The translations under genes and the position numbers were made by a program. This document shows positions 18,440-57,829 of a stretch of 64,000 nucleotides of DNA, in pieces. The notes below the pieces were generated by a model, which saw only the letters and a program-made list of their open reading frames with translations, had not been told where the DNA came from and ran no database searches. The stretch comes from an uncultured Clostridia bacterium. GTDB lineage: Bacteria; Bacillota; Clostridia; Christensenellales; UBA1242. How positions within the stretch are numbered: the stretch's first letter is position 1; each line of letters begins with the position of its first letter. The DNA lies in contig CALWDZ010000001.1 of NCBI GenBank assembly GCA_944376845.1, forward strand, positions 1 to 64,000, in the 5' to 3' direction.

Positions 18440-19600
18440 TTATTTATCTTCATTGACTTGTTCTAAAGTTGACTCTTTATCTAAACGTTTAATCCAAGAC
18501 CTACGACGTTTGTGTTGACGATGTTCAAAATGCTTCCAAAGTTGTTGAATATGTACATTGTTTTCAAGATTTAAATTAGTTTCACAAGTTTGTATACCTC
18601 GTTTAATAAAACTTGAAAGCATCTCTCTTATAATAAGTGCAGGGACACCTCGTGATTGCCATTGTGGTTTTACCGCAATAAGTGCCAAATCTAGTTCAAT
18701 TGGATGTTTAATTGCTTTGAGTAATGGGAAAATGCTTTTTAAATTTAACTTACCTTCGTATTTATTTATCACTTCACTTAAAGATGGGATACCAAAACCA
18801 AAGGCAATAACTTCATCATTTTCGTCAACAATAACGCTCATAAAGTCAAGACTTATAAACAATCTAAATTGATCAATAACTTGATCTCTTACCTTATCTG
18901 TATATGGAACAACTCCATAAAGTGGTCCATATGCTTCGTCTAAAAGATGGAATATATCTTTTCTATAACGCCTTATAAATGCACTCTTTGACTTCTTCTC
19001 TGCATTTTTTAAATGGTATTTTTTCATTACAGCGTCAGCAACGGCATTTATCTTTGGATCAATTTGCTCTGGAATTGTAAGTTTAAATTCTATCCAGTCA
19101 ATTTCTTTTGAATAGCCACAATATTCCATTAAATCTTTATAATATTCATAATTATATGCTTCCTCAAAAGTTGCGATTTCGTCAAACCCTTCAATAAGCA
19201 TACCCTCACGATCTAGGTCATTAAAGCCCATTGGCCCATGGACAATATTCATCCCCTTTTGTCTTGCCCAATTTTCAACACTTTCAAAAAGTGCCTTTGC
19301 AACTTCTTTGTCATTTATACAGTCAAAACGAGTAAAACGAACACGTTTCTCATTTACTTTTTTGTTGTAAAGTCTTTGTATTATTCCTGCGATTCTACCT
19401 ACAAGTTCACCATCTTTATACGCCAAAAAATATACCGCCTCGCAATCTTCAAACGATACATTCTTTTTAGGATTAAAAAGTTCAAGTTCACTAGACCTTA
19501 GTGGATGGACATACTGCTTTACGCCTTTATATAGTTTGGTAGGAAAATCTACAAAAAGTTTCCTTTGCTTTGCTGTTTTTACTTCTTTTATTTCTATCAT
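18440..19600 (-). CDS. GNAT-fold acetyltransferase-like protein, 386 aa
   Basis: A long GNAT-type protein known from Firmicutes and Bacteroidetes without an assigned substrate. It has an N-terminal domain with YFLAYKDGELVGRIAGI, a central GPMGFNDLDREGMLIEGFD segment typical of these proteins, and a second acetyl-CoA-like region (LALIAVKPQWQSRGVPALII). The basic tail HRQHKRRRSW is notable. Its promoter places transcription start at the ATG itself, and a palindrome covers the -35. A LysM gene stops just upstream. Confidence 0.82.
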   Translation of the reverse strand: MIEIKEVKTAKQRKLFVDFPTKLYKGVKQYVHPLRSSELELFNPKKNVSFEDCEAVYFLAYKDGELVGRIAGIIQRLYNKKVNEKRVRFTRFDCINDKEVAKALFESVENWARQKGMNIVHGPMGFNDLDREGMLIEGFDEIATFEEAYNYEYYKDLMEYCGYSKEIDWIEFKLTIPEQIDPKINAVADAVMKKYHLKNAEKKSKSAFIRRYRKDIFHLLDEAYGPLYGVVPYTDKVRDQVIDQFRLFISLDFMSVIVDENDEVIAFGFGIPSLSEVINKYEGKLNLKSIFPLLKAIKHPIELDLALIAVKPQWQSRGVPALIIREMLSSFIKRGIQTCETNLNLENNVHIQQLWKHFEHRQHKRRRSWIKRLDKESTLEQVNEDK

Positions 19601-23181: not shown

Positions 23182-23256
23182 GCCTCGTTAGCTCAGCGGT
23201 AGAGCAACCGGCTGTTAACCGGTAGGTCGTCTGTTCGAACCAGACACGTGGCGCCA
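23182..23256 (+). tRNA. tRNA-Asn (anticodon GTT)
   Basis: Anticodon stem ACCGG/CCGGT encloses loop CTGTTAA with GTT. T arm GTCTG-TTCGAAC-CAGAC and encoded CCA are intact. In the acceptor stem GCCTCGT/ACGTGGC, the fourth pair is T-T, a mismatch. Confidence 0.94.
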
Positions 23257-23288
23257 AAAAACCTCTTGGAACTCCAAGAGGTTTTTTT
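23257..23288 (+). terminator. Terminator after tRNA-Asn
   Basis: AAAACCTCTTGGA pairs with TCCAAGAGGTTTT and is followed by T's. Confidence 0.9.
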
Positions 23289-23375
23289 CATAATTACACG
23301 ACATCAAAATTTATTTTCATGACAAAACATTTGCACATTTGTTCATACGAGAATATTATTTAAAAGACAATATTA

Positions 23376-23404
23376 TTGACTATTTTTTTTAGATTTTGTA
23401 TATT
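23376..23404 (+). promoter_or_regulatory. Promoter of lipid kinase gene, leaderless geometry
   Basis: TTGACT (23376-23381), a 17-base spacer, TATATT (23399-23404), six bases, then ATG at 23411. The transcript would begin at or within a base of the start codon. Confidence 0.7.
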
Positions 23405-23410
23405 TTTAGT

Positions 23411-24304
23411 ATGGAAAAATGTTTATTTGCATATAACCCACAAAGTGGGAAAGGAAAAATCGCTAAAAAAGAACAATATATTTTAGAAACTCTTTCTAAA
23501 AAATTTGACGTGACTCTACTACATTCACAATATGCTGGACACATCGGCAAATATATTCTTGAAAATGGAGAACTTTATGATAACATTGTAATCTCTGGTG
23601 GAGATGGCACGTTAAATGAAGCAATCAACAGTATTGCCCGTTTGAATAAAAAAATCACTCTCGGGTATATTCCCGCAGGAACAGTCAACGATGTGGCACA
23701 CTCACTCAATATACCAAGAAATTTAAAGAAAGCATTAAAGACAATTTTAGATGGCAATTATTTTTCGCATGATATTTTTGAAATGAATGATAAGTTTGGC
23801 ATATATGTGTGTTGTAGTGGACTATTTACCGAAGCAAGTTATGCGACTTCACAAAAATCTAAAAAGAAAGTTGGCAAACTGGCGTATGGTTTACATGGAG
23901 TCAAAAAATTATTTTCCACAAAATCTTTAAAAATCAAACTCTCTGATGATTTAAACACAATAGAAGGCACATTTGCACTTATGTTAATAATTAACTCTAA
24001 AAATGTTGCAGGTTTTCATTTAAACAAAAAAGCTACTCTCGATGATGGTTTGGTTGATGTTGTACTTGTAAAAGCAAAAAAACAACGAGTAAGATTTTGT
24101 GAAGTTTTACGCGTTGCACGATTGTTCCTATTTGGTATACCAAAAAAATCATCTAAAAATATTCAAGTTCAAAAACTTTCAAAGTTTAAAGTTGAGTTAG
24201 ATAACAATTGCATAGTCAATCTTGATGGTGAAAGTATTGGACAAGGTAGTTTTGATTTTGAAGTAATTAAACAAGGAATAAATATCTTAGTTCCAAAAAA
24301 ATAG
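23411..24304 (+). CDS. Diacylglycerol-kinase-family lipid kinase, 297 aa
   Basis: Phosphorylates diacylglycerol or a related lipid with ATP (DagK/YegS/BmrU type). The phosphate-binding opening NPQSGKG (9-15) and catalytic GGDGT (63-67) are visible, followed by GYIPAGTVNDVA. At about 300 aa the length is normal. I start at ATG 23411; a TTG at 23396 would lie between the promoter boxes and so not in the mRNA. No ribosome-binding site is present. It may supply phosphatidic acid for phospholipid recycling, near the cardiolipin synthase gene across the tRNA-Arg. Confidence 0.9.
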   Translation: MEKCLFAYNPQSGKGKIAKKEQYILETLSKKFDVTLLHSQYAGHIGKYILENGELYDNIVISGGDGTLNEAINSIARLNKKITLGYIPAGTVNDVAHSLNIPRNLKKALKTILDGNYFSHDIFEMNDKFGIYVCCSGLFTEASYATSQKSKKKVGKLAYGLHGVKKLFSTKSLKIKLSDDLNTIEGTFALMLIINSKNVAGFHLNKKATLDDGLVDVVLVKAKKQRVRFCEVLRVARLFLFGIPKKSSKNIQVQKLSKFKVELDNNCIVNLDGESIGQGSFDFEVIKQGINILVPKK

Positions 24305-26229: not shown

Positions 26230-29200
26230 TTATTCTCCTTGCTGCTGAGTTACATTGATAGTTATAGTATTGCTATAAAGCACGATATCTTTACTTGAAC
26301 GCGAATTGAAATCAAATATTGTGATATAAAATTCAACAGTTACTGTAATTTCCGATTGCGATGAGGCGGAGTTTAGTAACAACAATGAATAATCACCATC
26401 ATCATTGACAAGTGAAACATATTGGTTATTTTCTGAAAGACGAACATAAATGTCACTCGCATCAACACCATTTATATAAGTTAGAAGCGTAAAGATGTCT
26501 GTGTATTTTGAGATTTCTGTTTCATTATTTAAAATTTCCGTAACTGCTGTTCCGGTTGTTTCGGACTTCGTGACTATTTCCTCTTTAAAGAAGAAAGTAT
26601 AGTTGTAAGAGGCACTACCCACGCCAGCAGTGTCACCATTATTGATAAGAGTTAATATCAAGATATCGTTAAAATGTGTATTACTGATATTTCCTTGTGC
26701 AAATATAATTTTAATGCCGTTTGCATCCATATCAAAGTCGAAACCAGAGATCTCGGTGTTTGAACCATTTTTATGCAATTTTATTTCATCAATATCTTCA
26801 AGTGTGGTAATACCTAGTTCTCTCATAGGAATATAAATGAAATACTGGGTTGAGTAAATTATATCCCCTTCCTCATTCTGCCCTGTCTCAATTTGTTCTG
26901 TATCATATCCATATATTGGCAAAGCACTAAAATCAATCAAATTACTATTTATAACATCATTTAGTGCATTTCCTGGAGTTAAATCTACAATTTTGCTTCC
27001 AGAAATTGTATCAACACTACTATAAACATCTACTGTAATTTTACCGTAAACAATACTATTGCTTTCATTTAAATTTTCGCCTATGGTATACTCTATTGTG
27101 GTCACAATACCTTGAGATGACACTTCTCTATAATTAACATTGTTTGAATCACTTAATGCTTCATAAGGATTGTCTAGATCTGTTTCAGAAAGGTTAAATA
27201 TAGCATTGCCACGATCTATATTACCATAAATGTTTCTTACTGCAATTGAATCAAATAATAAGTTAAAAATATCTGATTTACTAACATTTCCTTGATATTG
27301 ATAGTTTGAACTTGAAACCATGCTATTTGCTGTGTATCTGCTATCGACAAATTGAATATTTGATAAAATCAATTCATCATAATTTACACCACTTCTTGTT
27401 AGCAATACTATTAAATTGGCTGATGTAACATTATTTTGAATAATAATTCTAGGATTCTCTTTTAGATTTTGCATATCGCCAGGATTTGTTATCCAATCAT
27501 ATTCGTAAGTTCCATCCGCATTCAAACTTCGACTGGTATACAAACCTATTTCAACCCCAAATGTATCTAATATTTCTTGTCCTGTCCAAGAACTTGAATC
27601 ACTAGATATTGTTATCATTTGCAAAATATCACTTGCAAGCACATAAAATGCTACATTTTCAGTTTCTGATGTAACTTTTGGTAATCGTGATGTATTGGCG
27701 GTTATCCTTAAATTTTGATTTTCTGTTGGATCAACAAAATGAACTCTGACGGTATCAATCAACTTTTCTCCAGTATTTCCACCTTGACCATATTTACAAT
27801 AGACATCAATTAAAATATAATTTGTATCTACATCAAAGCCACCGAGTAAAATTATTGTACCAGTATCAGGATCTATGCTTACATATTGACTTCCCGCTGA
27901 TACAGTATTTATAGCAAATTTCAAATAATCACTATTACCACTAAGTGTTGTGTCGTCACCTGACACAAATGATGTTGCTGTTGTATATCCTGCAACCAAT
28001 TCAAATGGCCTGTATGTTGTACCTGCCCAATCTGAAACTAAAATATCCTCCCCTTCAACATAATTGCTAGGAAGTTCTGCACTTCTTGATTGTCCAGAAC
28101 CATACGCCAAAGTTGAGTCAACATCAATGAATTTTAAAGTTATCCATACATCTGCCTCAAAGTCTTCGCGAGTTTTTTGAGCGACGCCATTTTCATATGC
28201 ATAGTTGACGTTGACAGTTAATAAATCTTCAACATATTCAATATTTAACCCATCAGTGCTTGTTTCGAATGTTGGATTTGGCTCTTCTATATATTTAGTC
28301 ATATTATAATCGTTTTGGACTGTGTCGCCATCTTCGCTAGAACTATCCTCAAATGAAATACCTTTAAGATTTGCCCACTGAGTAACAGATAAACCTTCTA
28401 TTATGGTTTTTTCAGAGTTTGTTAAGAGTGTAACTTTTTCACCTCTTAAAGTATCAATAACACCAAGTTCACGAAGAGAATATGAAACCATAGAATTTGT
28501 ATTTGCTGAAAGACTTACTTGACGACGATCATCACTATTTTCTTGATTTACAAAGTGCACTGTTATTTGTGAATTGTTATCAACTTGGCGCATACCAATT
28601 GTAAGGGTCTGGTCTTCGATGATATAGCACTTATTAATTTGAAGAGTATACTTAGGCCAAGTTAATGGGAACTCACCTTCACCATCGTAATATGAATTTT
28701 CAAACTCAACTTCTGTTGAAGCGCCTATGTGTCCAGATGATGTTTCATATGAGATATCATAAGTCAATGTTGAATTTCCAGATTTATACGAAAAATCGTG
28801 TTGTTGTACTGTAATTCCTTCTTCTGATATATTATGGTCATCATCATATTTGTAAGTTGTAAGCATATAACCTACACGGAATTGGTAGTTGGAAATATCA
28901 CTATACCCAAATAAATCTGCAATTGAAAGATACTTTGATTCACTGTCAATTGGAACAGTTGCATAAACAGCTTGATTTGTTTGGATATTATATGCTCTAA
29001 TTCTAATTGATAGAACATTAGCAACATCACTTAGTGAAATTTGTTGATCATTTTCATCTGTTATTGCGTAATCAAGATAGATTGTGTATGAATCTTCAAT
29101 TGTTCTTTCGCCTACAATATAATTTTGGCTATTGTCAACCACGTCTATTACATCTAGTAAACTAAACGCAACTCCGTCACGTACATATGGCGTATCACTT

Positions 29201-32200
29201 GAAACCAAACTATACCTTTCGCGTATAGTCATTGGGATATCAATTGAAATTTCGCCATCATTCGAGGTGGCACTTAAACTTAATGTACCTGTTATGCTAT
29301 TGCTACCATTAAATTTTTCTGAACCAATAAAATCTATATCAAAATAATATTGATCACTTCTAGATGTCAGTTCATATTGCTCACTCCCATTTTCATATGT
29401 GAATGTTGCACTCCAATTATTGAAATTGGTTAATGAATAATCTTGAAGGCTAGTGTCACGTTTTGTAAATGCCACAGTTACAGTATGGTCATAGTCTGTT
29501 GCTGCACTACCTTGATCAACAATCCCGATACTATCACGTTCAAATGTTGTTATTGAACCTGTGTTAAATACTATATTGTACTGTGCCACAATGGTTACAT
29601 AATATCTTATTGTGTATCCATAGGCATCAGTGAGCACAATATCAACATTTTTGTCACCGAATGTTGAATCTATAAAACGGAAAGCTAAATCATAAGAAGT
29701 ACTAGTTTGAGAACGCTTTAAAACATACTCTGATCCTTGGTCATATGATACATCAAACATTGGTGCAACATTGCCCGTTTGATTTTGGGTTTCATTTGTG
29801 TGTTCTATAAAGATAAAGTTATCAGTTGGTGTTTCGCTTCCCCAAATTGCAAAATTAAGGTATGAAGTGAAATTGTAATCGCGAATATTGTTTCGATTTA
29901 TCTCTGAATTTGTTGTTCCGTCAGAATTCCTTAAAGTTTCATTTGTATAGTCATGGCTAACAATGAATGTTAATGGAATTTCCTCAGTTATTGAGTTACT
30001 ATATGTAACTGTAAGAACTAAAGATACAGTAACAGATGTTTCACGAGGCGAACCCATAGCCATAAAGTTAAAGTCATAAGTGTATTCACCAGCACCTTCC
30101 CCAGAAGTTGTAGGAGTATTTCTTAAATAACCTGTATATCTATTTACCAAAGTTTGATATTGACTATCTGTTGCCGTGTAAGTTATAGAGTCTGAATCTA
30201 TAGACAATTGCAAACTATCGGAAGAGAAATCTTCAGGAGTATAATATTCACCATTGGACCTACGTTTCATATTGAGTAGTGACAAATAGTTTGAATTCGC
30301 TGATGTACCATTATGTAAAACACTGGTATTTTGACCTGCAGTAAGAGAAACTTCTGTTTTCTCAAACTCAATGTCAAAATCATAATTCACATAGTAAGTA
30401 CCAATTTGTATTCCATCAGTAACACTATTTCCATTTCTACTATTTATTCGAATGCTCTTAGAAATTATACTACCTTGTGTTATATCTTCATTTTGTAAAG
30501 TGCAATTAGTTCCACTTAGTAATGCATATTGTTTAAAGAATTCTATGTTTTGAGTGCTTGTTGTAGCACTTCCACCTTGCGAATCAAAACTGGTAACAGT
30601 ACGATATGATAGTTGTATCCTCGACTCAAACGATACCAATATTTCTTCTACAACCGATGCACCCTCTTCATTTGTTAATGTTGATCCAATATATTCACCA
30701 TATGTGCCAAGTGCATAAACACTAAAGATTACACCTGCTTCACTTGAAACAAAGGCATTCATATCACCAACATTTAAATTGAGCAATGTAACAAATACTG
30801 AAATTTCATCGCCTTGCATACCCTCTGCTATAGTTATTAACGACGATTCTGCGTTGACACCATTTATGCTATCCACGCTTAAATATTTGGTAGTGCTTAA
30901 ATCAGCATCTTCTGGAACAGTTAAAGTTAATCGAATTTTTGTAAGAATGTCATCATTTGTCCCAATATAAATATTCTCTAGATTGTTTGAACTATTTGTT
31001 GAAATGCTAGAATTATAGTTGTATCCATGCAATTCATAAACCGTACCCAAGAAAACAACAACATTATAAACACCAACTGGAATATAATCTTCACCATTTT
31101 CTCCGTCAATCTTATAATATAAGCCAAACTGTAAACTTGTGCCATCGCTTATACTTGCTACGTCTTGACGAATTTCAAATTCTGTATCAAGAGAATAATA
31201 ATTGATTCCAACTTGTGCATTGTCTACGTAAATATATTCAGAACCAAGCCCAACTTGAACATATATATTACTTTGATGTCCTTGATCATTTAAGTCTTGC
31301 ACAACAACACGTTCTACGTCTGCCAAGTCGGCAGTATCGACAAGTGAAATGATATTTTGTGCGTTTTCAGTTGTATCAAACCAATATGATTCTGCAACAA
31401 CAACTACATCAACATTTGGAGTTGGATAGTTCGTGACTATTAAGAAATTTGGTTCAAGTGTGAAATTGAAATATGATGTCATTACAAGTGTTTCATCGCC
31501 ATCTGTTAAAGTGTTATAATAAGAAACTCTAAATGACAAATTGGTTATACTTGCAACTTCGCTTGCATCAAGTGCAATAACATAATGACCATTTTCAGCA
31601 ATTACATTTCCGCTGAAATCCCCATATACATTTTGTGTAATAAGTTCAACGGTCAAACTTCCTAAGCCATTGTTTGTTAAATTTGCATACCATGTGTCAA
31701 AATCTGAACTGCCACTAAATTCAAACAAAGCACTTAGAATATCTAAGTTGTTTCTTTTTCCTGCGGAAATGTCGCTTACAATGTCACTTATTGGATACAT
31801 ATTGTCTTGTGTAATTAGCTGACCATTAGGAGCAGTACCTACGCTTAGTGTTGAATGAATACGTAAAGTCATTGAGAAGTTATATGTAACTTGTTCTCCA
31901 TTATCTATAAATCTGAAGACAATAGAAATGTTTACATCGGTATCTTGGGTTACAAGCCCTACTTTGATAATATCTTCTCCTTCAATTTCTTGAGCAGCAA
32001 TAATTGAGTTGTCTATTGAAGTTACAATCTCTACCGTTATATCATCAAATGTTGTAAATATACTTTCTTCGTCATTTTTGATTATTTGGAAAGTACTATT
32101 TATATCTATTATGTTACCAGAGTCTATCTCATAAACTCCATAACGAGCATTATAGGTTAAGTTTGAATCGTTAGGTTCAATTAAACCAATGTCATAGTTT

Positions 32201-35200
32201 GACGAGATATATAAATTAACAACGTCCAAAACACCATATTTGGTATAGAAAACAAATTGAGTATTCCAGTTTTCTGTTGTGTCTTCGGCGTATAAAGTCA
32301 TAGTGTCATAATCTATCCAAGCACTTTGACCTTCATTACCAGTTGGTACAATATGGTATGATAGCAAGTCATTTGCATTTGTCGTACTGGATGATGATCC
32401 AATACTCATTGTTAAGTTATATTTACCATTGCCGATAGGTTCACCATTTGCCACATCTTCAAGAGATATATCCTGTATATCTGGGCTGTAAACCCCACCA
32501 CTTGTTCGTTCGGTAAAGTTTAAAGTAGGAATTTCACCAACACTTATATAGTAGTATGCTTCAAGTCCATTTTGTGTGGTCATTTGAACTTTTACTCTGA
32601 CATACTGAGCTCCACCACGGTTTATATTTATCACACTATTTCCATGAATGCCTGATGATATGCTTGCATACTGTCCTGGATTTGCTGCCGTCTGCCATCC
32701 ATAGTAATAATAAGCGACCTCACTTATTGTAAATGTTAAAGTAAGCGAAGGCAAATTTTCTTCCATTTCTATAAATGTACCATCACTAATTCTACCTATA
32801 ACAACTCTTTGAGTGCCATTTGTGGAATTTGGAATTAAATCATCAAATTTTTCTAACAAATCCACACTTGCAGTACCATTTTCAGCAAAACTAAGGTATT
32901 CCATATCAAATGTGATGTCTTGAACATTACCATAAAGTGCTGAACCGCTAAGATTGGTGTTTTGTGAAAATGCGGTTGTATAAGGATAATAGATATGAAT
33001 ATCTAGCACCTTTTTAATTTGAATAAGGTAAGGAATAACCAAACTATCGCTCGCCAAATTTAAACGTGCCTCTACAATTATAAAGGTATCACGCCCAACT
33101 GGCTGAGTTATAAGATTTGTACCTTCAAAATATGCATAGATGTTACGGTCGCTTTCATCAAGATTTCGAACACTTAGTTGCATTCCAGAAATATATCTTA
33201 TTCCATAAACGCCGTCTGTTATCTCTTCATCTGTTTCAATTAAAATGTCAGTGCCTTCAAGCCCTGCGCCTTCTAATGTATAGTATAAGCCTTCATCTAC
33301 TATATAGTCTATGTCAAGAAGGTTATATAAATCATACTCTATATCTAATGCATTTGGATAAATAACATATGGTATATCAAAAGGAAGTAACAATATATTA
33401 AATTCTATACTATCTTCATTACTCAAAGTAAGAATGCCTATTTCAGAATCGATTATGTTATTGTTGACGCCTTGAATTTGTATATTTTGACCTTGTACAA
33501 CTATATTATTTGTGCTTTCTATCTCCAATTTTTTTGTAATGGTTGTAGAACCATCATCAACAATGACAAAAGCATCCAAAATAGTGTCAAATGTGTATGT
33601 TTCGCCATTTACAAGTTTTAGATAATACTCACCTTTATACAAAACCCACATTGTGCTATCTGGATTTTTTGTTATATTTGGTCTAAGTGTGAAATTGATT
33701 TCGTAGGTTTCACCATCACTTGTCAAAACGTCTACGCCATTATACGCCATAACCAAACTAAGTGTGGTGCTACCAGTGATATTTGCAAGGCTGTAAAGTA
33801 TAAATTCATTTTCAGTACCATTACGCGTTATATAAAAACGTGTTGAGTCTCCCTCATTTACAAATCTAAAACCAACTTGAGCATAATCTATTGCAAAATC
33901 ACCAGCAACTCTTGCAATATTTAGTGGTGACTGCTGGTCTTCGCCAAGTATCACGGCTTGACCATAATAATTGTTATTATTTACATTTCCGTTTGCTACA
34001 TTTAGCAATATCTCATTTGAGTTTTGTTTTGCCCTAACATTTGGATTTATGTACAAATACAACGAACCAACTGTATCAATGGTTGTATTTTGTTCATTAT
34101 TTTTTTCTAATGCCAACATTACTCGTCTATAACCATTGTTTTCGGTAGATGATTTAAATACAATATTTGCATTATAAATATAACTTTGAACTGCACCATC
34201 GCCTCGTCCAACGGCATTGCCAGTTACTGGAGAGCCATCTGATGCTGTAAAGTTTGCTATGTATGCACTAGAATTGGTTGAGTCTGTACCTAAAGCAATA
34301 CGATTGCCTATTTGTTGACCTTCTTCGTCATATTCATATAAATATAACGAATATTGCGAGTTATCAAGTGAAAAATCATCTGAACCTGTACCAACGATAT
34401 AGTTTAGTTGAATTCTGACTTGATAAAGTGAATCTGAATAAGCACCAAGATAAGTGACATTTCCAACAGAGGAAATAGGCTCATCTGTATAATCATTTCC
34501 ATAGGAGTCTACAGAAAGATATACATTTTGTGAGATATCAAGTACTATTATTTGAGATATTCCAAGTACCGGAACTGTAACGCGGAGTTGTAAACTATAT
34601 GACCTTCCGAAATCTCGCAAAATTTGTAAACTCGATAAATTTGTGGCAGTCCCAACAAAGTCAATATAGCCTTCGAGCGTTTCCATATCTTGCTCATCTA
34701 CCAAACTGAAGTTGGCTAAACTAGTTAAAAATCCTTCACCGTTATTATAAGTGTAAGTGTATGTGATAAGGTTCAAAACACCTGCGTTTGTAGATTTTAA
34801 ATTTATAGTTGAACCACTGTAACCAACAAGTGGAATGGAAATCTGTGGGAAAGTATAATTACTCCCCGAAACACCACTATCAAACACAGTAGTAGTATTT
34901 TTGGTTGCCACTGTTCCAATTACACTTTCAACAAGGCGGTCAACTTTTGACACGTAGCCATTTTGCTGGCATGAGAAGTATAGTGTATCCTGAATTACAC
35001 CATCAGAATCTCTAAGATAAACTTCTACATCACCTGTACCATTGAAAGTAAATGTTCCATTTGCGACGGTTAATATTGAAGTATTGGAACTTTCAAGAGT
35101 GTAATCACTTGAAATAGGGGTATTGCCATATTTGTCTTGAAGCACAACTGCCAAACTGGAATAATCAATGTTTTGTCCATCGTTTTCAAACAAATACTGA

Positions 35201-37638
35201 CTTACATCGTTACCGCCAAGGGTATAAGCTGTTTGTATATTATTTATATAGCCATTTTCGCTTTGAATATTTGATGTTACTAAAATTCTATTATCTGCAC
35301 TTGATTGATAACTTCCATCTTCAGCCAAATTTATATTAAAGTCAAAAACTTCAGCAGAGCCATCATATACTTCAATACATTCAAATTGTTGTCCGTCATT
35401 GTATGTTGAAATTCTATACTCGCGTGGAGATAAAAACGCATCATTATCGTAGACTACAAAAAGTTCAATTCTTCTTTCACTTACATTGCTTGGAAGTGAA
35501 CCTATATCCATTGAGAAAACAAACTCCGTTCCGTTCTGTTGTTCTGTGCTTGAAGTGCTATAAATAAGTGAAGTTTCTGAGCCTGAATCTGCAATTTTTG
35601 CAACAATATAGATATCCCCACTAAGCACTGCATTTCTGAAAATCAGTTGTTCATTTGTCTGTTCACTCTGTCCTGCAGACGCTGGCAACGAATAGCCTAT
35701 AACAACCTCAAAAGGAGTAGTCGTGTTTTGAACATATGCTATATCATTTGTTGCATCGTTTATAATAAGTTCGTCATTTTCAAGAACTGTTTGAATGTTG
35801 GTTGTTAAACCATACAAAGTTTTATCAACATAAACTTCTAGTGTCGATATTGCATTTAATGAATCTTGACTGTATCTTTGGATTATATACCTACCCTGTT
35901 CATCAAGTTTTGGATTAGCTTGATAATCAGTTTGTATTGTCATAAAGACAACATCAAATGTTCTGCCATAAGCCTGCGTTGTGCGAGGTTGAATAATGCC
36001 ATCTTCAATTTCATACAAACTAACAATTTGAGAACCAAGTTGATAGTCTACCGCCTCACCTGTTGTGACAATCAAATCATCTACATTGAGTTCTCTTGAT
36101 GCAACTACAAAATATGCACGCCTTTGATATAGGTTTGCACTTGGAACAACAGCCAAAGACCTAACATCGAGGCTGTTTAAATCTGGTTTTTCACCGTCAA
36201 TAATAGTTAGTGTTTGATTTGTCGTAGACCAATAAATTGAACTATCTTGCACAGCATTTGTTGAGAAATTGACCGTTATAGGATCAACATCATCTGCTGT
36301 TTCACCAAAATACCTTACTTCTATACATAGGCTGTTTGAATCTACATCACTCGTAACTGCAAATTGCCAAAAATATTCATCTATGCTTTGAGTTATGTAT
36401 GGGAAATAATATGTATATGTTTCGCCGTCAACAACCACCTGCCTAGTTTCGCCATGCCCATAACTTGGAATTGTAACAACATTGTATGCACTATTTTCAT
36501 TGTTTACAGCATCATAGTATGTGTTGCCGACTCTATACAAAAACCTTATTGCAACACTTGATAATTCATGTTGAAGGGATATTGATTGGTCCAAACTTGA
36601 ATACAAACGAATACCAAGGTTTGACTTAGAAGATGTTTGTGCAATGTTTGAATTGTTTGCATAAAGAGTAAACAATGTATCTACATCTACATTACCCATT
36701 CCACCATCAAGACGCATACTATCAACTTCTACTTCTACAATCTCTATTGTTTTATTTGACTTATATGCTTGGTGTTCTTGGCCAGTGGTGTCTGATGACA
36801 TTTGTTCAAGTCTTGCGAGTACAGCCGAATATCTTGCATCTTCATCAAGATTTTGATAGCCAAGAAGTACCCTTTCCTCAATAGGAGTTGAAGCAAAAAC
36901 ATAACCAACAATTGTACTTGTGCCTATACGGTTTGTAGCGAAAACATTTGTATGACCTTGTTGTGTGATATTTTCGTCAGTGCCGAATGCTGTCATAAAA
37001 TATGTATTTTTGTATACTACTTCTCCACCATCTGAACCATCGTGGCTATATTGATATGCACTTCGTGCTGGATAAAATTTTAAACTTGCATTTATAGATG
37101 AACCAACAGCAAAAATGTCACTATTGTCATCTTGTGCACTAACACGTGTTTCAAGTTCAACTCTATAAACTGGGACATCAACATTTACATTTGCACTAAT
37201 TGAATTTATCTGCTGATTTTGTGAAGTTGCGGTAATTATACTGTGACCACCGGTTATCCATTCTTCTCCATTACATTCATCGTCATGTGCCGTTGTTTCG
37301 AGATAAACATCAAATGGTACGCCAATGGTTGCTGTTTGTGGTATAGAAATTACTCCATCAGAAATGCGTACACTGCCATCAGAAGCTGTGATAATGTTAC
37401 CATTTTGCAAACTTAAAGTTAGTGTGGTTTCTGAAACATCTTGCGTTGTTGTGGAAATAGTGATAGTAAAATCATCATCAACATTGTACTCCGCTTGGTC
37501 AAATGCCAAATCTTGAGGCATAACCTGTGGCGTACTAAAATAGCCCGCTATTGCCAAAATTCCTACGCCAATTCCGCACGCACCAATAAAGACAGCGAGT
37601 GAAATTGCAAATACTTTTAAAAATGTAGTAAATTTCAT
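26230..37638 (-). CDS. Giant membrane-anchored surface protein, 3802 aa
   Basis: I do not recognise the family. One hydrophobic segment (about 5-35, from KFTTFLKV through AIAGYF) follows the start and probably anchors the protein with the chain outside. An IGAC stretch resembles a lipobox, but hydrophobic residues continue past the Cys. The rest is thousands of residues rich in Ser, Thr, Asn and Asp, with very few Cys, alternating in a pattern that suggests stacked beta-sandwich domains. One unit (about 870-915) looks Big-like. No LPxTG, SLH or GLUG motif is seen. ATG 37638 has a GGAGA site and a near-consensus promoter, so the gene is actively expressed. A role in adhesion or as a surface scaffold is inferred. 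Confidence 0.85.
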   Translation of the reverse strand: MKFTTFLKVFAISLAVFIGACGIGVGILAIAGYFSTPQVMPQDLAFDQAEYNVDDDFTITISTTTQDVSETTLTLSLQNGNIITASDGSVRISDGVISIPQTATIGVPFDVYLETTAHDDECNGEEWITGGHSIITATSQNQQINSISANVNVDVPVYRVELETRVSAQDDNSDIFAVGSSINASLKFYPARSAYQYSHDGSDGGEVVYKNTYFMTAFGTDENITQQGHTNVFATNRIGTSTIVGYVFASTPIEERVLLGYQNLDEDARYSAVLARLEQMSSDTTGQEHQAYKSNKTIEIVEVEVDSMRLDGGMGNVDVDTLFTLYANNSNIAQTSSKSNLGIRLYSSLDQSISLQHELSSVAIRFLYRVGNTYYDAVNNENSAYNVVTIPSYGHGETRQVVVDGETYTYYFPYITQSIDEYFWQFAVTSDVDSNSLCIEVRYFGETADDVDPITVNFSTNAVQDSSIYWSTTNQTLTIIDGEKPDLNSLDVRSLAVVPSANLYQRRAYFVVASRELNVDDLIVTTGEAVDYQLGSQIVSLYEIEDGIIQPRTTQAYGRTFDVVFMTIQTDYQANPKLDEQGRYIIQRYSQDSLNAISTLEVYVDKTLYGLTTNIQTVLENDELIINDATNDIAYVQNTTTPFEVVIGYSLPASAGQSEQTNEQLIFRNAVLSGDIYIVAKIADSGSETSLIYSTSSTEQQNGTEFVFSMDIGSLPSNVSERRIELFVVYDNDAFLSPREYRISTYNDGQQFECIEVYDGSAEVFDFNINLAEDGSYQSSADNRILVTSNIQSENGYINNIQTAYTLGGNDVSQYLFENDGQNIDYSSLAVVLQDKYGNTPISSDYTLESSNTSILTVANGTFTFNGTGDVEVYLRDSDGVIQDTLYFSCQQNGYVSKVDRLVESVIGTVATKNTTTVFDSGVSGSNYTFPQISIPLVGYSGSTINLKSTNAGVLNLITYTYTYNNGEGFLTSLANFSLVDEQDMETLEGYIDFVGTATNLSSLQILRDFGRSYSLQLRVTVPVLGISQIIVLDISQNVYLSVDSYGNDYTDEPISSVGNVTYLGAYSDSLYQVRIQLNYIVGTGSDDFSLDNSQYSLYLYEYDEEGQQIGNRIALGTDSTNSSAYIANFTASDGSPVTGNAVGRGDGAVQSYIYNANIVFKSSTENNGYRRVMLALEKNNEQNTTIDTVGSLYLYINPNVRAKQNSNEILLNVANGNVNNNNYYGQAVILGEDQQSPLNIARVAGDFAIDYAQVGFRFVNEGDSTRFYITRNGTENEFILYSLANITGSTTLSLVMAYNGVDVLTSDGETYEINFTLRPNITKNPDSTMWVLYKGEYYLKLVNGETYTFDTILDAFVIVDDGSTTITKKLEIESTNNIVVQGQNIQIQGVNNNIIDSEIGILTLSNEDSIEFNILLLPFDIPYVIYPNALDIEYDLYNLLDIDYIVDEGLYYTLEGAGLEGTDILIETDEEITDGVYGIRYISGMQLSVRNLDESDRNIYAYFEGTNLITQPVGRDTFIIVEARLNLASDSLVIPYLIQIKKVLDIHIYYPYTTAFSQNTNLSGSALYGNVQDITFDMEYLSFAENGTASVDLLEKFDDLIPNSTNGTQRVVIGRISDGTFIEMEENLPSLTLTFTISEVAYYYYGWQTAANPGQYASISSGIHGNSVININRGGAQYVRVKVQMTTQNGLEAYYYISVGEIPTLNFTERTSGGVYSPDIQDISLEDVANGEPIGNGKYNLTMSIGSSSSTTNANDLLSYHIVPTGNEGQSAWIDYDTMTLYAEDTTENWNTQFVFYTKYGVLDVVNLYISSNYDIGLIEPNDSNLTYNARYGVYEIDSGNIIDINSTFQIIKNDEESIFTTFDDITVEIVTSIDNSIIAAQEIEGEDIIKVGLVTQDTDVNISIVFRFIDNGEQVTYNFSMTLRIHSTLSVGTAPNGQLITQDNMYPISDIVSDISAGKRNNLDILSALFEFSGSSDFDTWYANLTNNGLGSLTVELITQNVYGDFSGNVIAENGHYVIALDASEVASITNLSFRVSYYNTLTDGDETLVMTSYFNFTLEPNFLIVTNYPTPNVDVVVVAESYWFDTTENAQNIISLVDTADLADVERVVVQDLNDQGHQSNIYVQVGLGSEYIYVDNAQVGINYYSLDTEFEIRQDVASISDGTSLQFGLYYKIDGENGEDYIPVGVYNVVVFLGTVYELHGYNYNSSISTNSSNNLENIYIGTNDDILTKIRLTLTVPEDADLSTTKYLSVDSINGVNAESSLITIAEGMQGDEISVFVTLLNLNVGDMNAFVSSEAGVIFSVYALGTYGEYIGSTLTNEEGASVVEEILVSFESRIQLSYRTVTSFDSQGGSATTSTQNIEFFKQYALLSGTNCTLQNEDITQGSIISKSIRINSRNGNSVTDGIQIGTYYVNYDFDIEFEKTEVSLTAGQNTSVLHNGTSANSNYLSLLNMKRRSNGEYYTPEDFSSDSLQLSIDSDSITYTATDSQYQTLVNRYTGYLRNTPTTSGEGAGEYTYDFNFMAMGSPRETSVTVSLVLTVTYSNSITEEIPLTFIVSHDYTNETLRNSDGTTNSEINRNNIRDYNFTSYLNFAIWGSETPTDNFIFIEHTNETQNQTGNVAPMFDVSYDQGSEYVLKRSQTSTSYDLAFRFIDSTFGDKNVDIVLTDAYGYTIRYYVTIVAQYNIVFNTGSITTFERDSIGIVDQGSAATDYDHTVTVAFTKRDTSLQDYSLTNFNNWSATFTYENGSEQYELTSRSDQYYFDIDFIGSEKFNGSNSITGTLSLSATSNDGEISIDIPMTIRERYSLVSSDTPYVRDGVAFSLLDVIDVVDNSQNYIVGERTIEDSYTIYLDYAITDENDQQISLSDVANVLSIRIRAYNIQTNQAVYATVPIDSESKYLSIADLFGYSDISNYQFRVGYMLTTYKYDDDHNISEEGITVQQHDFSYKSGNSTLTYDISYETSSGHIGASTEVEFENSYYDGEGEFPLTWPKYTLQINKCYIIEDQTLTIGMRQVDNNSQITVHFVNQENSDDRRQVSLSANTNSMVSYSLRELGVIDTLRGEKVTLLTNSEKTIIEGLSVTQWANLKGISFEDSSSEDGDTVQNDYNMTKYIEEPNPTFETSTDGLNIEYVEDLLTVNVNYAYENGVAQKTREDFEADVWITLKFIDVDSTLAYGSGQSRSAELPSNYVEGEDILVSDWAGTTYRPFELVAGYTTATSFVSGDDTTLSGNSDYLKFAINTVSAGSQYVSIDPDTGTIILLGGFDVDTNYILIDVYCKYGQGGNTGEKLIDTVRVHFVDPTENQNLRITANTSRLPKVTSETENVAFYVLASDILQMITISSDSSSWTGQEILDTFGVEIGLYTSRSLNADGTYEYDWITNPGDMQNLKENPRIIIQNNVTSANLIVLLTRSGVNYDELILSNIQFVDSRYTANSMVSSSNYQYQGNVSKSDIFNLLFDSIAVRNIYGNIDRGNAIFNLSETDLDNPYEALSDSNNVNYREVSSQGIVTTIEYTIGENLNESNSIVYGKITVDVYSSVDTISGSKIVDLTPGNALNDVINSNLIDFSALPIYGYDTEQIETGQNEEGDIIYSTQYFIYIPMRELGITTLEDIDEIKLHKNGSNTEISGFDFDMDANGIKIIFAQGNISNTHFNDILILTLINNGDTAGVGSASYNYTFFFKEEIVTKSETTGTAVTEILNNETEISKYTDIFTLLTYINGVDASDIYVRLSENNQYVSLVNDDGDYSLLLLNSASSQSEITVTVEFYITIFDFNSRSSKDIVLYSNTITINVTQQQGE

Positions 37639-37697
37639 AATTTTTTCTCCACTTAGCAACCGACTTTAATTTATTATTTACATTATTAGTCAAAATA

Positions 37698-40489: not shown

Positions 40490-40526
40490 AAAAAATAAGA
40501 AGTGAACATCACTTCTTATTTTTTTT
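40490..40526. terminator. Bidirectional terminator overlapping the gmk-like stop
   Basis: Long arms around AAGTGA-ACA-TCACTT with A/T runs on both sides. It ends both the 813-aa gene and the kinase gene, and the kinase stop codon (40516-40518) lies inside the right arm. Confidence 0.85.
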
Positions 40527-41091
40527 CAAACCTTTTTTGTTCAATTTTTTCATGTTTTTTAATTATTGTTTCAATTTTTTTAAGGGTTTTATTTAAATTT
40601 AAATTTTCTATTACATAATCATAATTTTTAGCATAACTAAGTTCAAACTCCATTCTGGAAATTCTAAGGTCAATATCATGGTCACCACGTGCTTTAAGAC
40701 GTTTTATAAGTTCTTCTTTTGGTGCTGTTAAAAAAATGGATAATACTTCAACCTTATTTTTTAACGCACGCTTTAGATTTATTTGCCCTAGTACACCAAT
40801 ATCTTTTATATAATGATTTTGCCTTTTTTTAACTTCTTCTAGTGATGACTTTAAAACTCCATAAAAATTGTTATGAATTTCCTCATGTTCAAAAAGTTCA
40901 CCATTTTTTATTTTATTTTCAAAGTCCTCACGCGTAACATAGATATATGGACTATGCATATCCTCATCGGTGTGTCTTGGCATACGCGTTGTACATGTCT
41001 TCATGAGTTTTATATTTGGATTATCATTTAATATCTGCGTTATTATTGTATTTTTGCCAACGCCAGCAGAACCAGAAATAATTATCAGCAT
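40516..41091 (-). CDS. gmk: Guanylate-kinase-like protein, 191 aa
   Basis: Guanylate kinase phosphorylates GMP to GDP. The P-loop reads GSAGVGKNT (7-15), with Asn where Gly or Ser is usual. TTRMPR and YVTREDFENKIKNGELFEHEEIHNNFYG follow the family's GMP-binding pattern. At 191 aa it is slightly short. It is monocistronic, not beside rpoZ as gmk often is, and the changed P-loop leaves room for a paralog. Its own promoter lies upstream. Confidence 0.82.
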   Translation of the reverse strand: MLIIISGSAGVGKNTIITQILNDNPNIKLMKTCTTRMPRHTDEDMHSPYIYVTREDFENKIKNGELFEHEEIHNNFYGVLKSSLEEVKKRQNHYIKDIGVLGQINLKRALKNKVEVLSIFLTAPKEELIKRLKARGDHDIDLRISRMEFELSYAKNYDYVIENLNLNKTLKKIETIIKKHEKIEQKRFEKK

Positions 41092-41110
41092 ATTTACCTC
41101 ATCTTATGTG

Positions 41111-41139
41111 AGTATACAATAACAAAGCAGCATTGTCAA
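41111..41139 (-). promoter_or_regulatory. Promoter of the gmk-like gene
   Basis: Minus-strand TTGACA (41134-41139), a 17-base spacer, TATACT (41111-41116). Leader about 13 bases, with GAGG. Confidence 0.85.
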
Positions 41140-46334: not shown

Positions 46335-47148
46335 CTTTATCCTCTAAAATTATTTCATCTAAGGTGAAATTTTTTATTTCAAAACTTTCACCTTTTTCAA
46401 ACCTTACATCAACCGTTTGTTTAAGTAAATTGTTGTATACAACTTTGCCAACACCATCACTTGTTTTCACCATGGAGTTTATTTTTGGCATCTTTTTCGC
46501 CACTTCGGCATAATGGTCATTTTCATAGGCAAGACAACACATAAGTCTTCCACAAAGTCCGCTTATTTTGCTAGGATTAAGGCTTAGACCTTGATTTTTT
46601 GCCATTTTGATACTTGCATGGTCAAAATCTTTTAAAAATCTACTACAACAAACTTCTCTTCCGCATGGACCAAGACCGCCAAGTAATTGTGCCTCCACTC
46701 GCCCGCCTATTTGGTGAAGTTCAATTCGACACCTAAAAATAGCAGCCAATTTTTTAACAAGTTCACGAAAATCAACTCTACCTTCTGATGTAAAGTTTAT
46801 TACAACTTTCGATTGGTCTAGATTAAGTTCTGCATTAGTAACTTTTAAATCAAGTCCAAGTTCTTCACTTAATTTTTCTGCTGTTTGTTTGATTTCTTTT
46901 TCTTTTTTCTCATTCTCTTTTTTTTGCTCAATGTCTTTTTGTGTTGCAAGCCTTAATACCTTTTTTAATTGGTCCTCGTGCTCATAATTTTCTAAATATT
47001 CAACATCTTTTGCAACATATGCAAGTTCTGCACCTCGAATGGTATCCACAATAACGACATCCCCCTTTTTCAATGGCAAACCATTTGCTAAAAATGAATA
47101 TATTTTACCATTTGGTTCATATGATACATCAACTTTATCTATCTGCAT
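46318..47148 (-). CDS. ricT: PSP1-domain protein RicT (YaaT)
   Basis: RicT is part of the RicA-RicF-RicT complex that binds iron-sulfur clusters and promotes RNase Y processing and sporulation in Bacillus. The PSP1 domain shows GGRVEAQLLGGLGPCGREVCC and GLCGRLMCCLAYE with several Cys, the presumed cluster ligands. At 276 aa it has the family length. A GGAGGT site precedes the ATG. It overlaps holB by 10 bp, the standard position after holB. Confidence 0.95.
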   Translation of the reverse strand: MQIDKVDVSYEPNGKIYSFLANGLPLKKGDVVIVDTIRGAELAYVAKDVEYLENYEHEDQLKKVLRLATQKDIEQKKENEKKEKEIKQTAEKLSEELGLDLKVTNAELNLDQSKVVINFTSEGRVDFRELVKKLAAIFRCRIELHQIGGRVEAQLLGGLGPCGREVCCSRFLKDFDHASIKMAKNQGLSLNPSKISGLCGRLMCCLAYENDHYAEVAKKMPKINSMVKTSDGVGKVVYNNLLKQTVDVRFEKGESFEIKNFTLDEIILEDKDGTKA

Positions 47149-48104
47149 AAATATTTTACCTCCAAAATGCTAGTGAGTAAACTTTCAAAAAGAAGTGATA
47201 GTGTAACATTTGAATATTGTTTTTTGTTCACTTCATTTATTCTTTTTATAATGTTTGTGAGTGCTTTCATTGAAAATTCATGTTGAATTTGTGAAAGGTC
47301 ACTTAATATTGATTTGTTTTTTACAAGTTCTTTTTTCCCCGCTTTTAAAAGCATCAAATCGCCGTACATACTTTGCATCAATGTTATTATACCATTAAAT
47401 TGGCTTTTGGTGATTTTGGGATTTATATAATTTACAATTTCGGCACTTGTTCTAAGTTTTGTAACTATATCTTTTGCCAAGTTATAGTTTGCAATAAAAT
47501 TTTCATCAGTTAAGATATGCTCCATATCTCCAACATAGCCATTTGTGTAATCTAAAGCAAGTGAAAAATCTTCCTTGTTTTTATATTCTGAAAACATTTC
47601 ACAAAGGCTTTCACTATCAAAAGGTGTAACATCAACTTTTAATAGCCTTGACCTAACCGTTGCAAGAACTTTATTTATATTTGTAGTAGACACCAAAAAT
47701 ATAGTATTTTTAGGTGGACCTTCTAAAATTTTTAATAATTTATTTTGCGATTGCTCACTTGAATTATCTAAATTTTTAATTAAAATAAGTTTATGGTTAC
47801 TTAAAATAGGCTTTTTATTAGCATCATTAATAACATCTTGTGAGTCCTGCGTGTTGAACGCATCACCTTTTGGATAAACGCATACATCGGGATGAGAACC
47901 ACATTCAATTTTTTGACATGTTGGACAATTATCCAAACCATTTTCATTGCACAAAATAATTTTTGCACCAAGCGTCAAAACTTCATTCAAAGTGACTTTG
48001 TCAGGGCAAGAGAAAAGATAACCGCTGACAAGTTTCCCTTGCGATTTTTGATGTAAAATATTCTGCATATATGGCATATTAAATAAATATTTTTGATAAT
48101 TCAC
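47139..48104 (-). CDS. holB: DNA polymerase III delta' subunit
   Basis: Clamp-loader subunit of the replisome. A small Cys cluster (CNENGLDNCPTCQKIECG) and KLLKILEGPPKNTIFLVSTTN followed by ATVRSR are characteristic of HolB. The 321 aa are normal. The start is GTG at 48104. A -10 hexamer lies exactly six bases upstream, and there is no ribosome-binding site in between. First gene of the holB-ricT-yabB-rsmI operon. Confidence 0.93.
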   Translation of the reverse strand: MNYQKYLFNMPYMQNILHQKSQGKLVSGYLFSCPDKVTLNEVLTLGAKIILCNENGLDNCPTCQKIECGSHPDVCVYPKGDAFNTQDSQDVINDANKKPILSNHKLILIKNLDNSSEQSQNKLLKILEGPPKNTIFLVSTTNINKVLATVRSRLLKVDVTPFDSESLCEMFSEYKNKEDFSLALDYTNGYVGDMEHILTDENFIANYNLAKDIVTKLRTSAEIVNYINPKITKSQFNGIITLMQSMYGDLMLLKAGKKELVKNKSILSDLSQIQHEFSMKALTNIIKRINEVNKKQYSNVTLSLLFESLLTSILEVKYLCR

Positions 48105-48150: not shown

Positions 48151-48182
48151 AAAAAAAACCAATGAGATTAGTCATTGGTTTC
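48151..48182 (-). terminator. Terminator of the giant lipoprotein gene, stop codon in the loop
   Basis: Arms AACCAATGA and TCATTGGTT (48157-48165 and 48172-48180) surround a six-base loop that holds the stop codon at 48168-48170. A T run follows on the minus strand. Confidence 0.85.
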
Positions 48183-51100
48183 TTCTGGAATTGAATAACT
48201 TGCATATGAACTATTTGCAGTAATTTGTTGTCCTTCAGTAGGTATACTTGAGTTCTTAATAGTGGCTTCAATAACGTCACCTTTTGCTATACCATACATG
48301 ATTGATGAAATTCTAATTTCATATTCATGTGGGAATGGAATACGTTCGCCGTTGACTTCAATTTCTCCATTTCCATTTCTAAGGTTATTAAAAGTAAGAA
48401 TCAATGATATTGTGGAATAATTTCCTGGATTAGTTACAGAACATCCGAAGTTATCAGGACTAAGATTACTATCACTACCATTATATCCTCCAACAAGTTT
48501 GGATGCATATATGGTATAGGATATTCCAGCGCTACTACCTTGAGTGCCATAGATTGTAATATCTGATGTAACATCTGCATAGATTTCAAAGCCATTTAAA
48601 TTTAGCCCATCATCGGTTGGGGTTAGTTTAACATCACTTGTCAATGCACCAATCACACCACCAACAAAACTTGAAATAGATGTTTCATCTTGTGCTGGTT
48701 TTACTGCACGAATTTCGCTCTTTAATTCATTACTTGTACCAATCTTGACATTGGTCAAATTGACATCTCCAAATGTGTTATCAAAGTAAATTTCACCAAT
48801 AAAACCACCAACGGCATTTCTACCAGTTATTAAACTGCCAGTATATTCGCAATTAGTAATAGCAACATTTTCAACAACTCTACCTACAAGTCCACCAACA
48901 CTATTTGGAATTATTGCTTGATTGAATACAATATCAATACCAACAGAGCAATCAATCAAATTATTATCTTGGGTTGCATTTCCTCTAACTATTCCAGAAA
49001 GTCCTCCTACCGCCAGTGGAACTTTTGGAGTTAAAACAAATATATAGTAACTTGTTTGTTGTTCTTCATCTTCTATTTGTGGTGCTAAAACACTTACATT
49101 TCTAAGCATGCCTTTAAGGTCACCGACGATTACACCACCATAAGCACTTGCACGAATGAAATAATTCTCAAGATTTTCATAGGTGTATGTAATATCTCTA
49201 ACTTCTGCGTTAAGACCAATTCCACCAAACATAAAGCCTGCCACCATACCGATTGAGGCTATGGCATCCTCTATGTAAGCATTTTTAAGTATACCAAGTC
49301 CACCTAAATATCCAACAATACCACCGGCATAGGATACGGTATTATAGTTAGAGCCACCTTCTTCATAAAGAATTTCATCTTGAACACTTTGCTGTGACCA
49401 CTCGGATGACGTGTTGGTTTGATATGCATTTGTTGAAATCGATGAATATATGTTTTGAATATCAAACGATGATACTGTTCTTCCAAATACGCCACCAACG
49501 ATGTTTTTACCAAGCACAACTTTTGACGAACTATCACCATTATACCCATCAACCGATAGATTATAAGCATACACTCTATTTACAGTGCCTGCCACAGTTC
49601 CAACACTGACTGCATTTGGAAGATTTATATATCTTGGTGCAAATGTTATATTTTGAATTACTGCATAGTCATTTCCGCTACCAATTTGTGAGAAATAGCC
49701 ACCTGATGTCAAACTTTCATTTGTATTTATTGAGAAGTTTGAGATAGTTAAGCCATTACCCTCAAAGTAGCCCGCAAGAACATAGTTATATAGTGAACTT
49801 ACCACCAAGTTTTCTTGTGTGTAGTCTATGTTATTTACAAGTCTAAAGTGCTGTGAATTTACATATCTTATGCTATTTGAAATAAAGTTTTCTTCAAACT
49901 CCACTGCTGAAAATACAATATGTGGATTATACATTGAGCCTTCGGTGTTTGAGCCAGGCGTTTCTGCATAGATATATAGTGTTTCTCCTGTTTCTTCAAC
50001 ATAGTCTTCAGAAAGTATATATTTTGAAGATGATGCTAAGATATTTGCTGACACCAGTTGAGGTCTGTTCTCTCTAAACTGCATACTACTTCCTTGATTT
50101 TGTAAACTTGTAGTTGTAATAAGTCTTGAGTACTGCAAGTAGTTTCTATAATCATTTGCAGAAATTGTGCTTCCAGTTTGTATATCATGAGAGTATAGAT
50201 ATGAATTATTATCAATAGCATAGAACCATACACCATTTGTGATGTCCTGATTTGAATTGATTGCAAAGTTATTAAATATCTTCTCACCAACTGTATAAGT
50301 ATTTGATGAAAGTGTGACCTCATAACCTATTGCAAACTCGATTACAAGTGTTGGTCTAAGCCCTTCACCATATTCTTCATTAGAAGAATTGATACTTGTG
50401 TTAAAGTTATCATCTTTTAAATAATAACTATCTTCAATTACACCCGGAGATGAGATATAGAATGGGTAATTTCCAGTATCTCTATCGCCAAGTCTACTTG
50501 TTGTGTATGATGAAATTATTTCGCCATTGTTTGTACATACAAAACCTGAATTTACAGATGATGAAGTCAAAGGAATGTTTGCATAGCAATTAGAAATGCT
50601 GCCATCATTTATATAAGCAAATGCACCAGCAATAGATGTCGCTCTTATCATGTAAGTTGTGTCACTAGCGTACATATATGATAGGCCTGATGAGTACTCA
50701 CCTTCAATGAAACTAGCAAATATCGTCCCGCTGTTTCTAACAACAAAGCCCGCTGTTGCATTGTTGACGTTTGTACTTGAATTTCTAATTAAACTTCGTT
50801 TTACATAACTTGAAGCAATGTGTCCATAGTTTTCTGCAACAAAGCCCGCAAGGTTTGCACCATAACTTTCAATACGTAAACTTACCCTTGAATTTGTAAT
50901 ATAACCATTATTTATTGCAACAAAAGGTGTAATGTTTGATGTGGATGTAAGCGTTACCAGTGCCGAATTGGTGACAATAAGCGAAGAAGAATCATCTTGG
51001 CTTGTAACTTTGCAGTTTGTAATTGTACCATTGTTCTCGGCACAGATAAGTCCAAAGTTGAAAGCATTCCCGTTGCTCTCATTTCGGAAATTGAATGTAG

Positions 51101-57695: not shown

Positions 57696-57729
57696 TTTCT
57701 CTCCATTTTTTCTTTTTGTTTGAGTTTTT

Positions 57730-57829
57730 GTCATGCTGACCACTCCTTCCTTGACGGAGAGGAAGCATCTCTTTTGTTTGAGATTCTTCGCTTCGCTCAG
57801 AATGACTAGTAATATGCGCTCAGAATGAC
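57730..57829. repeat. Dispersed repeats between the two GLUG giants
   Basis: GTCATGCTGACC to GAAGCATCTC (57730-57771) and a divergent GAGATTCTTCGCTTCG to CAGAATGAC (57780-57806), plus a half copy ending CAGAATGAC (57816-57829). This is the same family as at 1729 and 25986-26196. Confidence 0.75.

Follow-up and report, generated by a model that had tools for sequence, protein, structure and literature searches.

Very probably, about 35–45 of the roughly 810 genes (4–5.5%) in the genome studied here are transcribed from ordinary sigma-A promoters whose position makes the A of the ATG the first transcribed base. The resulting leaderless mRNAs would initiate without a Shine-Dalgarno (SD) sequence, a mode of translation that is known but uncommon, and this class of genes would have expanded in a single clade of the Christensenellales. 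The underlying geometry, a -10 hexamer that ends exactly six bases before the start codon (N6), is real and occurs far above chance.

Promoter geometry at gene starts

The window, i.e., the 64,000 nucleotides analyzed as a whole, comprises bases 1–64000 of contig 1 of a genome of 1.02 Mb (19 contigs, 99.4% complete, 32.7% GC). The arrangement is exemplified by the gene for a YegS/DgkB-type lipid kinase (Table 1). The first-pass annotation had described TATATT, six bases and ATG at this gene in the absence of a ribosome-binding site, and this is what the sequence contains, together with TTGACT 17 nt upstream of the hexamer; an SD sequence is absent from the 20 nt preceding the ATG. The start codon is fixed by residues conserved from codon 3–4 on, and transcription would start at the base following TTTAGT, as judged from the usual distance between a -10 element and the start site. 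Upstream lie a tRNA-Asn gene and, 88 nt before the promoter, a strong hairpin that carries a U tract and was not listed by the consensus scan; the kinase gene therefore needs a promoter of its own.

Table 1. Positions of promoter elements and associated genes in the window.
Feature	Position	Strand	Basis or remark
-35 TTGACT, GNAT-like gene	19635-19630	-	sequence
-10 TATATT, GNAT-like gene	19612-19607	-	N17 after -35; N6 (TAGGAT) before ATG 19600
386-aa gene, termed GNAT in the first-pass annotation, predicted leaderless	18440..19600	-	no Pfam match at 1e-5
tRNA-Asn 5' of lipid kinase	23182..23256	+	hairpin between tRNA and kinase gene
Terminator-like hairpin, 14 pairs + U tract	23257..23288	+	-18.4 kcal/mol, z -7.25; would insulate the kinase promoter
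-35 TTGACT, lipid kinase	23376..23381	+	sequence; TTGAC conserved among orthologs
-10 TATATT, lipid kinase	23399..23404	+	17-nt spacer from -35; ortholog comparison
Six-base discriminator TTTAGT, lipid kinase	23405..23410	+	sequence; predicted transcription start = next base
YegS/DgkB-type lipid kinase gene, 297 aa, predicted leaderless	23411..24304	+	PF00781, PF19279; ATG 23411-23413
-35 TTGAAA, holB	48138-48133	-	16-nt spacer
Extended -10 TGC-TAAAAT, holB	48119-48111 (TAAAAT 48116-48111)	-	N6 (AAATAT) before GTG 48104
holB (DNA polymerase III delta' subunit), GTG start, predicted leaderless	47139..48104	-	PF13177

The same spacing had been noted for the GNAT-like gene and, with a GTG start, for holB, the intervals given (19607-19600 and 48111-48104) beginning with the last base of the -10 element and ending with the first of the start codon. 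Both hold, as TTGACT-N17-TATATT-N6-ATG and as TTGAAA-N16-TAAAAT-N6-GTG with an extended -10, respectively. The AGGA contained in the six bases of the GNAT-like gene was rejected as an SD sequence because at 1 nt from the ATG it is too close. The GNAT arrangement is retained in the nearest sibling (L086), and a search with a strict, GNAT-specific pattern detected no conserved copy where the GNAT gene starts in the genus members G004 and G013. With regard to holB, the homolog in G004 matches from residue 2 in an open frame of only 322 aa, so that the start must be residue 1–2. Two weaker candidates did not withstand inspection and were ruled out as leaderless genes since neither has an adequate -35 element: at the DUF421 gene (21529) AATAAT lacks the first T and no -35 is present, and at the SpoVB-like gene (19965) TATGAT-N5 is accompanied only by TTGCAT at a 19-nt spacer. 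The DUF421 gene starts 28 nt past the stop codon of SpoVB, with which it shares the strand, and is probably part of an operon. A leadered contrast to the predicted leaderless genes of the window is provided by a guanylate-kinase-like gene (40516-41139, minus strand), in which a near-perfect TTGACA-N17-TATACT is followed by about 20 nt of leader, and which has GAGG as an SD-like sequence.

For the genome-wide analysis, 1,011,657 bases (about 99% of the genome) were joined and 813 genes were called using our own gene finder, in which starts are chosen by coding potential and the type of start codon, with no regard to upstream motifs. The joined sequence did not contain a recognizable 16S 3' end. 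An SD match of at least 4 nt precedes 525 of 812 genes (65%), and 229 genes without a match of at least 3 nt constitute the non-SD set. Among these 229, TAnnnT is located exactly six bases before the start in 45 cases, all of them thus devoid of SD and with the first T at -12, as opposed to about 13 at other spacings. When at least five of the six TATAAT bases are demanded, the figures are 28 and about 5. In 200 dinucleotide shuffles the mean was 11.8 and the maximum 22, and a binomial test on a slightly larger gene set gave p = 4.5e-12. The genome-wide count of -10 hexamers at this spacing in genes lacking SD, by which the first-pass annotation had suggested judging the pattern, therefore lies far above chance (45 vs. 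about 12). For 51 genes with an unambiguous start the corresponding values are 19 at N6 and 0–9 at other spacings.

Several features that played no part in selecting the 45 genes accompany the hexamer. TTG is present at the -35 position, with a spacing of 16–18 nt, in 62% of them vs. 10% of the other non-SD genes (Fisher p = 2e-12), T occupies position -1 in 87% vs. 50%, and 44 of the 45 start with ATG. In addition, TGn precedes the -10 element in 29% vs. 3–11%. A combined score of at least 10 is reached by 36 genes at N6 and by about 2 at other spacings. A general promoter pattern applied to the whole genome was discarded because of poor contrast; TTGAC-N17..19-TAnnnT-N5-TATG, in which the T at -1 sharpened the contrast, yielded 17 matches in the genome vs. 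about 2.5 when the spacing was changed.

Conservation at the lipid kinase gene and distribution across the order

A set of 59 family-type lipid kinase orthologs was collected from the window's genus and family. In 33 of these the distance between the end of the best -35/-10 pair and the start codon is 6 nt, and in 48 it is 5–8 nt; those with a near-start promoter mostly lack SD, down to about 40% protein identity. Position -1 is T or C in all 22 of 22 selected orthologs. Where the start codon is shifted by two codons (L064, L065, L066), the promoter shifts along. This tracking of a moved start codon, together with the conservation among orthologs, indicates that selection maintains the placement, and no other single argument speaks as strongly for the arrangement being functional. 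GC-rich relatives in the order, e.g., Borkfalkia stercoripullorum (L148), precede the kinase with an SD-like leader, and the promoter, where found, is mostly located 20–38 nt upstream. In six kinase orthologs (L117, L121-L124, L129) an SD-like AAGG or GGAG is found between -35 and -10; a leaderless mRNA could not include this sequence, which may be a relic or due to chance.

The distribution of the arrangement was surveyed in 200 genomes of the order, with families given as codes, using the pattern TTGAC-N17..19-TAnnnT-N5-TATG, which detects TTGAC-type promoters only; the genomes used are draft metagenome assemblies, and survey counts were transcribed by hand from the result tables. Order-wide, 3.73 matches per Mb were obtained vs. 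1.16 for a control pattern with a spacing of 9 (paired p = 1e-25). The density is bimodal: 14 families reach 3.3–12.4 per Mb, with a spacing-9 control of 0.9–2.6, and 17 families remain at the chance level of 2 or less. The window's family has 9.2 matches per Mb. Outside the order the value is as low as 1.78 in the class (reversed-pattern control 0.78), in line with the rarity of leaderless genes in mapped Clostridia, and 0.78 in the rest of the phylum (control 0.46).

In an RpoC tree of 30 genomes, all high-density families fall into one clade with a long stem (SH-aLRT 100), and the only low lineages within it are f21 and f28, sampled by one and two genomes, respectively. The class thus marks one whole sub-lineage of the order to which Borkfalkia belongs, presumably the Christensenellales. 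On the gene level, N6 is seen in 11 of 55 non-SD genes of G203 (f15, another family; 45% GC, 400-kb sample) as against 2.7, mostly with exact TATAAT, and samples of G075, G337 and G024 gave no N6 peak at this level. The samples of G025 and G017 were too small to decide. In G017, a member of the window's family represented by 299 kb, the count of 4 vs. 2.5 is not significant, which suggests that the class may vary in size. The RpoC proteins of G025, G028 and G042 (f3, f6 and f20), open frames of 1257–1274 aa, have their match split between residues 515 and 604, which suggests a shared insertion.

It is conceivable, although we regard it as rather doubtful, that one change at the base of the clade made ribosomes or promoter spacing favor leaderless initiation, that a second class of genes was hence kept in at least 14 families, and that individual genes have since changed from SD to leaderless starts and back. 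What lets leaderless initiation spread can be asked directly by comparing sister families that have the class with those that lack it, and the two forms of the same gene.

Proposed leaderless initiation and alternative readings

In the reading that we favor, a sigma-A promoter composed of a TTGACA-like element, a spacer of 16–18 nt and a TATAAT-like hexamer, often with TGn, would be followed by a six-base discriminator, which would place the transcription start at the A of the ATG and result in an mRNA without a 5' leader. The ribosome would then need no SD pairing and would load directly on the start codon at the 5' end, a mode of ribosome loading that has been reviewed (PMC9031893), and would presumably do so as an intact 70S particle with fMet-tRNA, as in other bacteria. 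Most genes of the genome use SD, with the class having expanded within one clade of the order that includes Borkfalkia. The earlier proposal that the mRNAs begin at the start codon draws support from the genome-wide excess, the matching -35 elements and the conservation at the kinase gene, and for its promoter part it relies on sequence and conservation. Observations that speak against it are the lack of a significant peak in the G017 sample, the low densities of f21 and f28 within the clade, the failure of the strict pattern to find the GNAT geometry in two further genus members, and the SD-type orthologs that many of the genes have in other families.

That the promoters are real but transcription starts 1–4 nt further upstream or slips, such that very short leaders without a 5'-terminal AUG are formed, is improbable. 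A smaller excess at N7 (11 genes with a score of at least 10 vs. about 2.4) and the spacing of 7–8 in some kinase orthologs speak for such leaders, but the maximum at N6 is sharp and T at -1 followed by A at +1 is the usual pyrimidine-purine start dinucleotide. Longer transcripts from upstream promoters, with AT-rich unstructured leaders lacking SD as in Bacteroidetes and with a minor or unused near-start -10, are very unlikely: a promoter-like pair is present upstream of the kinase gene (23330-23359) and one of the encoded proteins has three or more S1 domains, but the exact N6, the matching -35 and the conserved hexamers would be left unexplained, and a hairpin closes the tRNA unit upstream. 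Given an AT content of 67% and the frequency of TAnnnT at every spacing, occurrence at N6 by chance in the AT-rich sequence near starts also had to be considered. This explanation is hardly credible and counts as already refuted by the binomial, shuffle and survey results: the observed 45 exceed the shuffle maximum of 22, no other spacing exhibits a comparable peak, the same signal appears in the 45% GC genome, and the arrangement is conserved in the kinase orthologs.

Known leaderless genes, gene content and further features

Of the 209 Firmicutes genomes considered in Zheng 2011 (PMC3160421), 56 are predicted to have leaderless genes, at a mean of 4.2%, with cases concentrated in Lactobacillales and Mycoplasma; a term search of the paper found no mention of Clostridia, and the present lineage is not named in the passages retrieved. 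Mapping revealed 2–3% leaderless genes in solventogenic Clostridia (PMC9045289) and 15 such genes in C. difficile (PMC7438776). The statement that systematic leaderless translation is not typical of Firmicutes is therefore borne out by the low numbers in mapped Clostridia and weakened by the predictions for 56 genomes, and with respect to the genome studied here a class is supported but "systematic" overstates a minority of this size next to 65% of genes with SD. As in mapped Clostridia, leaderless mRNAs would occur, here as a prediction.

The predicted genes resemble the TA-led class of Zheng 2011, in which the first T of TAnnnT lies about 12 nt upstream of the start codon, SD is absent and the genes are a minority beside those with SD, and they share with low-GC genomes therein the TG peak before the -10. 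They differ from the Firmicutes cases described there in belonging to a clade of Christensenellales and in that most members have a clear TTG at -35. In Deinococcus-Thermus, too, a -10 element a few bases before the open reading frame results in leaderless mRNAs (PMC12340547), as is predicted here from sequence; on the other hand, such genes are far more widespread there (phylum mean 39% in Zheng 2011), and the 4–5.5% found here, usually with a -35, stay well below the 20% of genes or more that mark a leaderless-dominated genome of the Deinococcus type. As TA-led genes are already known in bacteria including Lactobacillales and Mycoplasma, the present case constitutes a new lineage for a known mechanism. 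Our literature search retrieved passing mentions only and no paper on leaderless genes in Christensenella. A clearly bounded clade of mostly uncultured Clostridia is thus added to the bacteria with a leaderless gene class.

Of 57 scored candidates, 40 were scanned against Pfam; the candidates include AddB, PcrA/UvrD, a second UvrD-like helicase, PriA, RecD2 and HolB as well as a XerC-like recombinase, a DNA alkylation repair protein, MnmE, TruA, phosphoglycerate mutase and a P-type ATPase. A putative tRNA-dihydrouridine synthase (Dus) and a putative alanyl-tRNA synthetase were recognized among the candidates from their sequence. DNA repair and replication genes are prominent in the list, and a larger leaderless share among information-storage genes is reported in Zheng 2011 (PMC3160421). 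In the two families compared, PcrA, a radical SAM enzyme and TruA are of the leaderless type in both and other genes switch to SD; many genes of this type in the genome studied here (G000) have SD-type orthologs in other families. Gene finders that depend on SD would misplace or down-weight such starts, e.g., the GTG of holB.

About 42% of the window is taken up by genes for three very large proteins on the minus strand (26230-37659, 3809 aa; 48168-57743, 3191 aa; 57852-63857, 2001 aa), none of which has a Pfam match at 1e-5; the 3809-aa and 3191-aa proteins exhibit hydrophobic, signal-peptide-like segments near the start. RpoB, encoded upstream of RpoC on the minus strand of contig C13 of the same genome, has a rifampicin-binding region that departs at several positions from the usual SQFMDQTNPLAELTHKRR, H526 for instance being replaced by Q; one may guess at natural rifampicin resistance.
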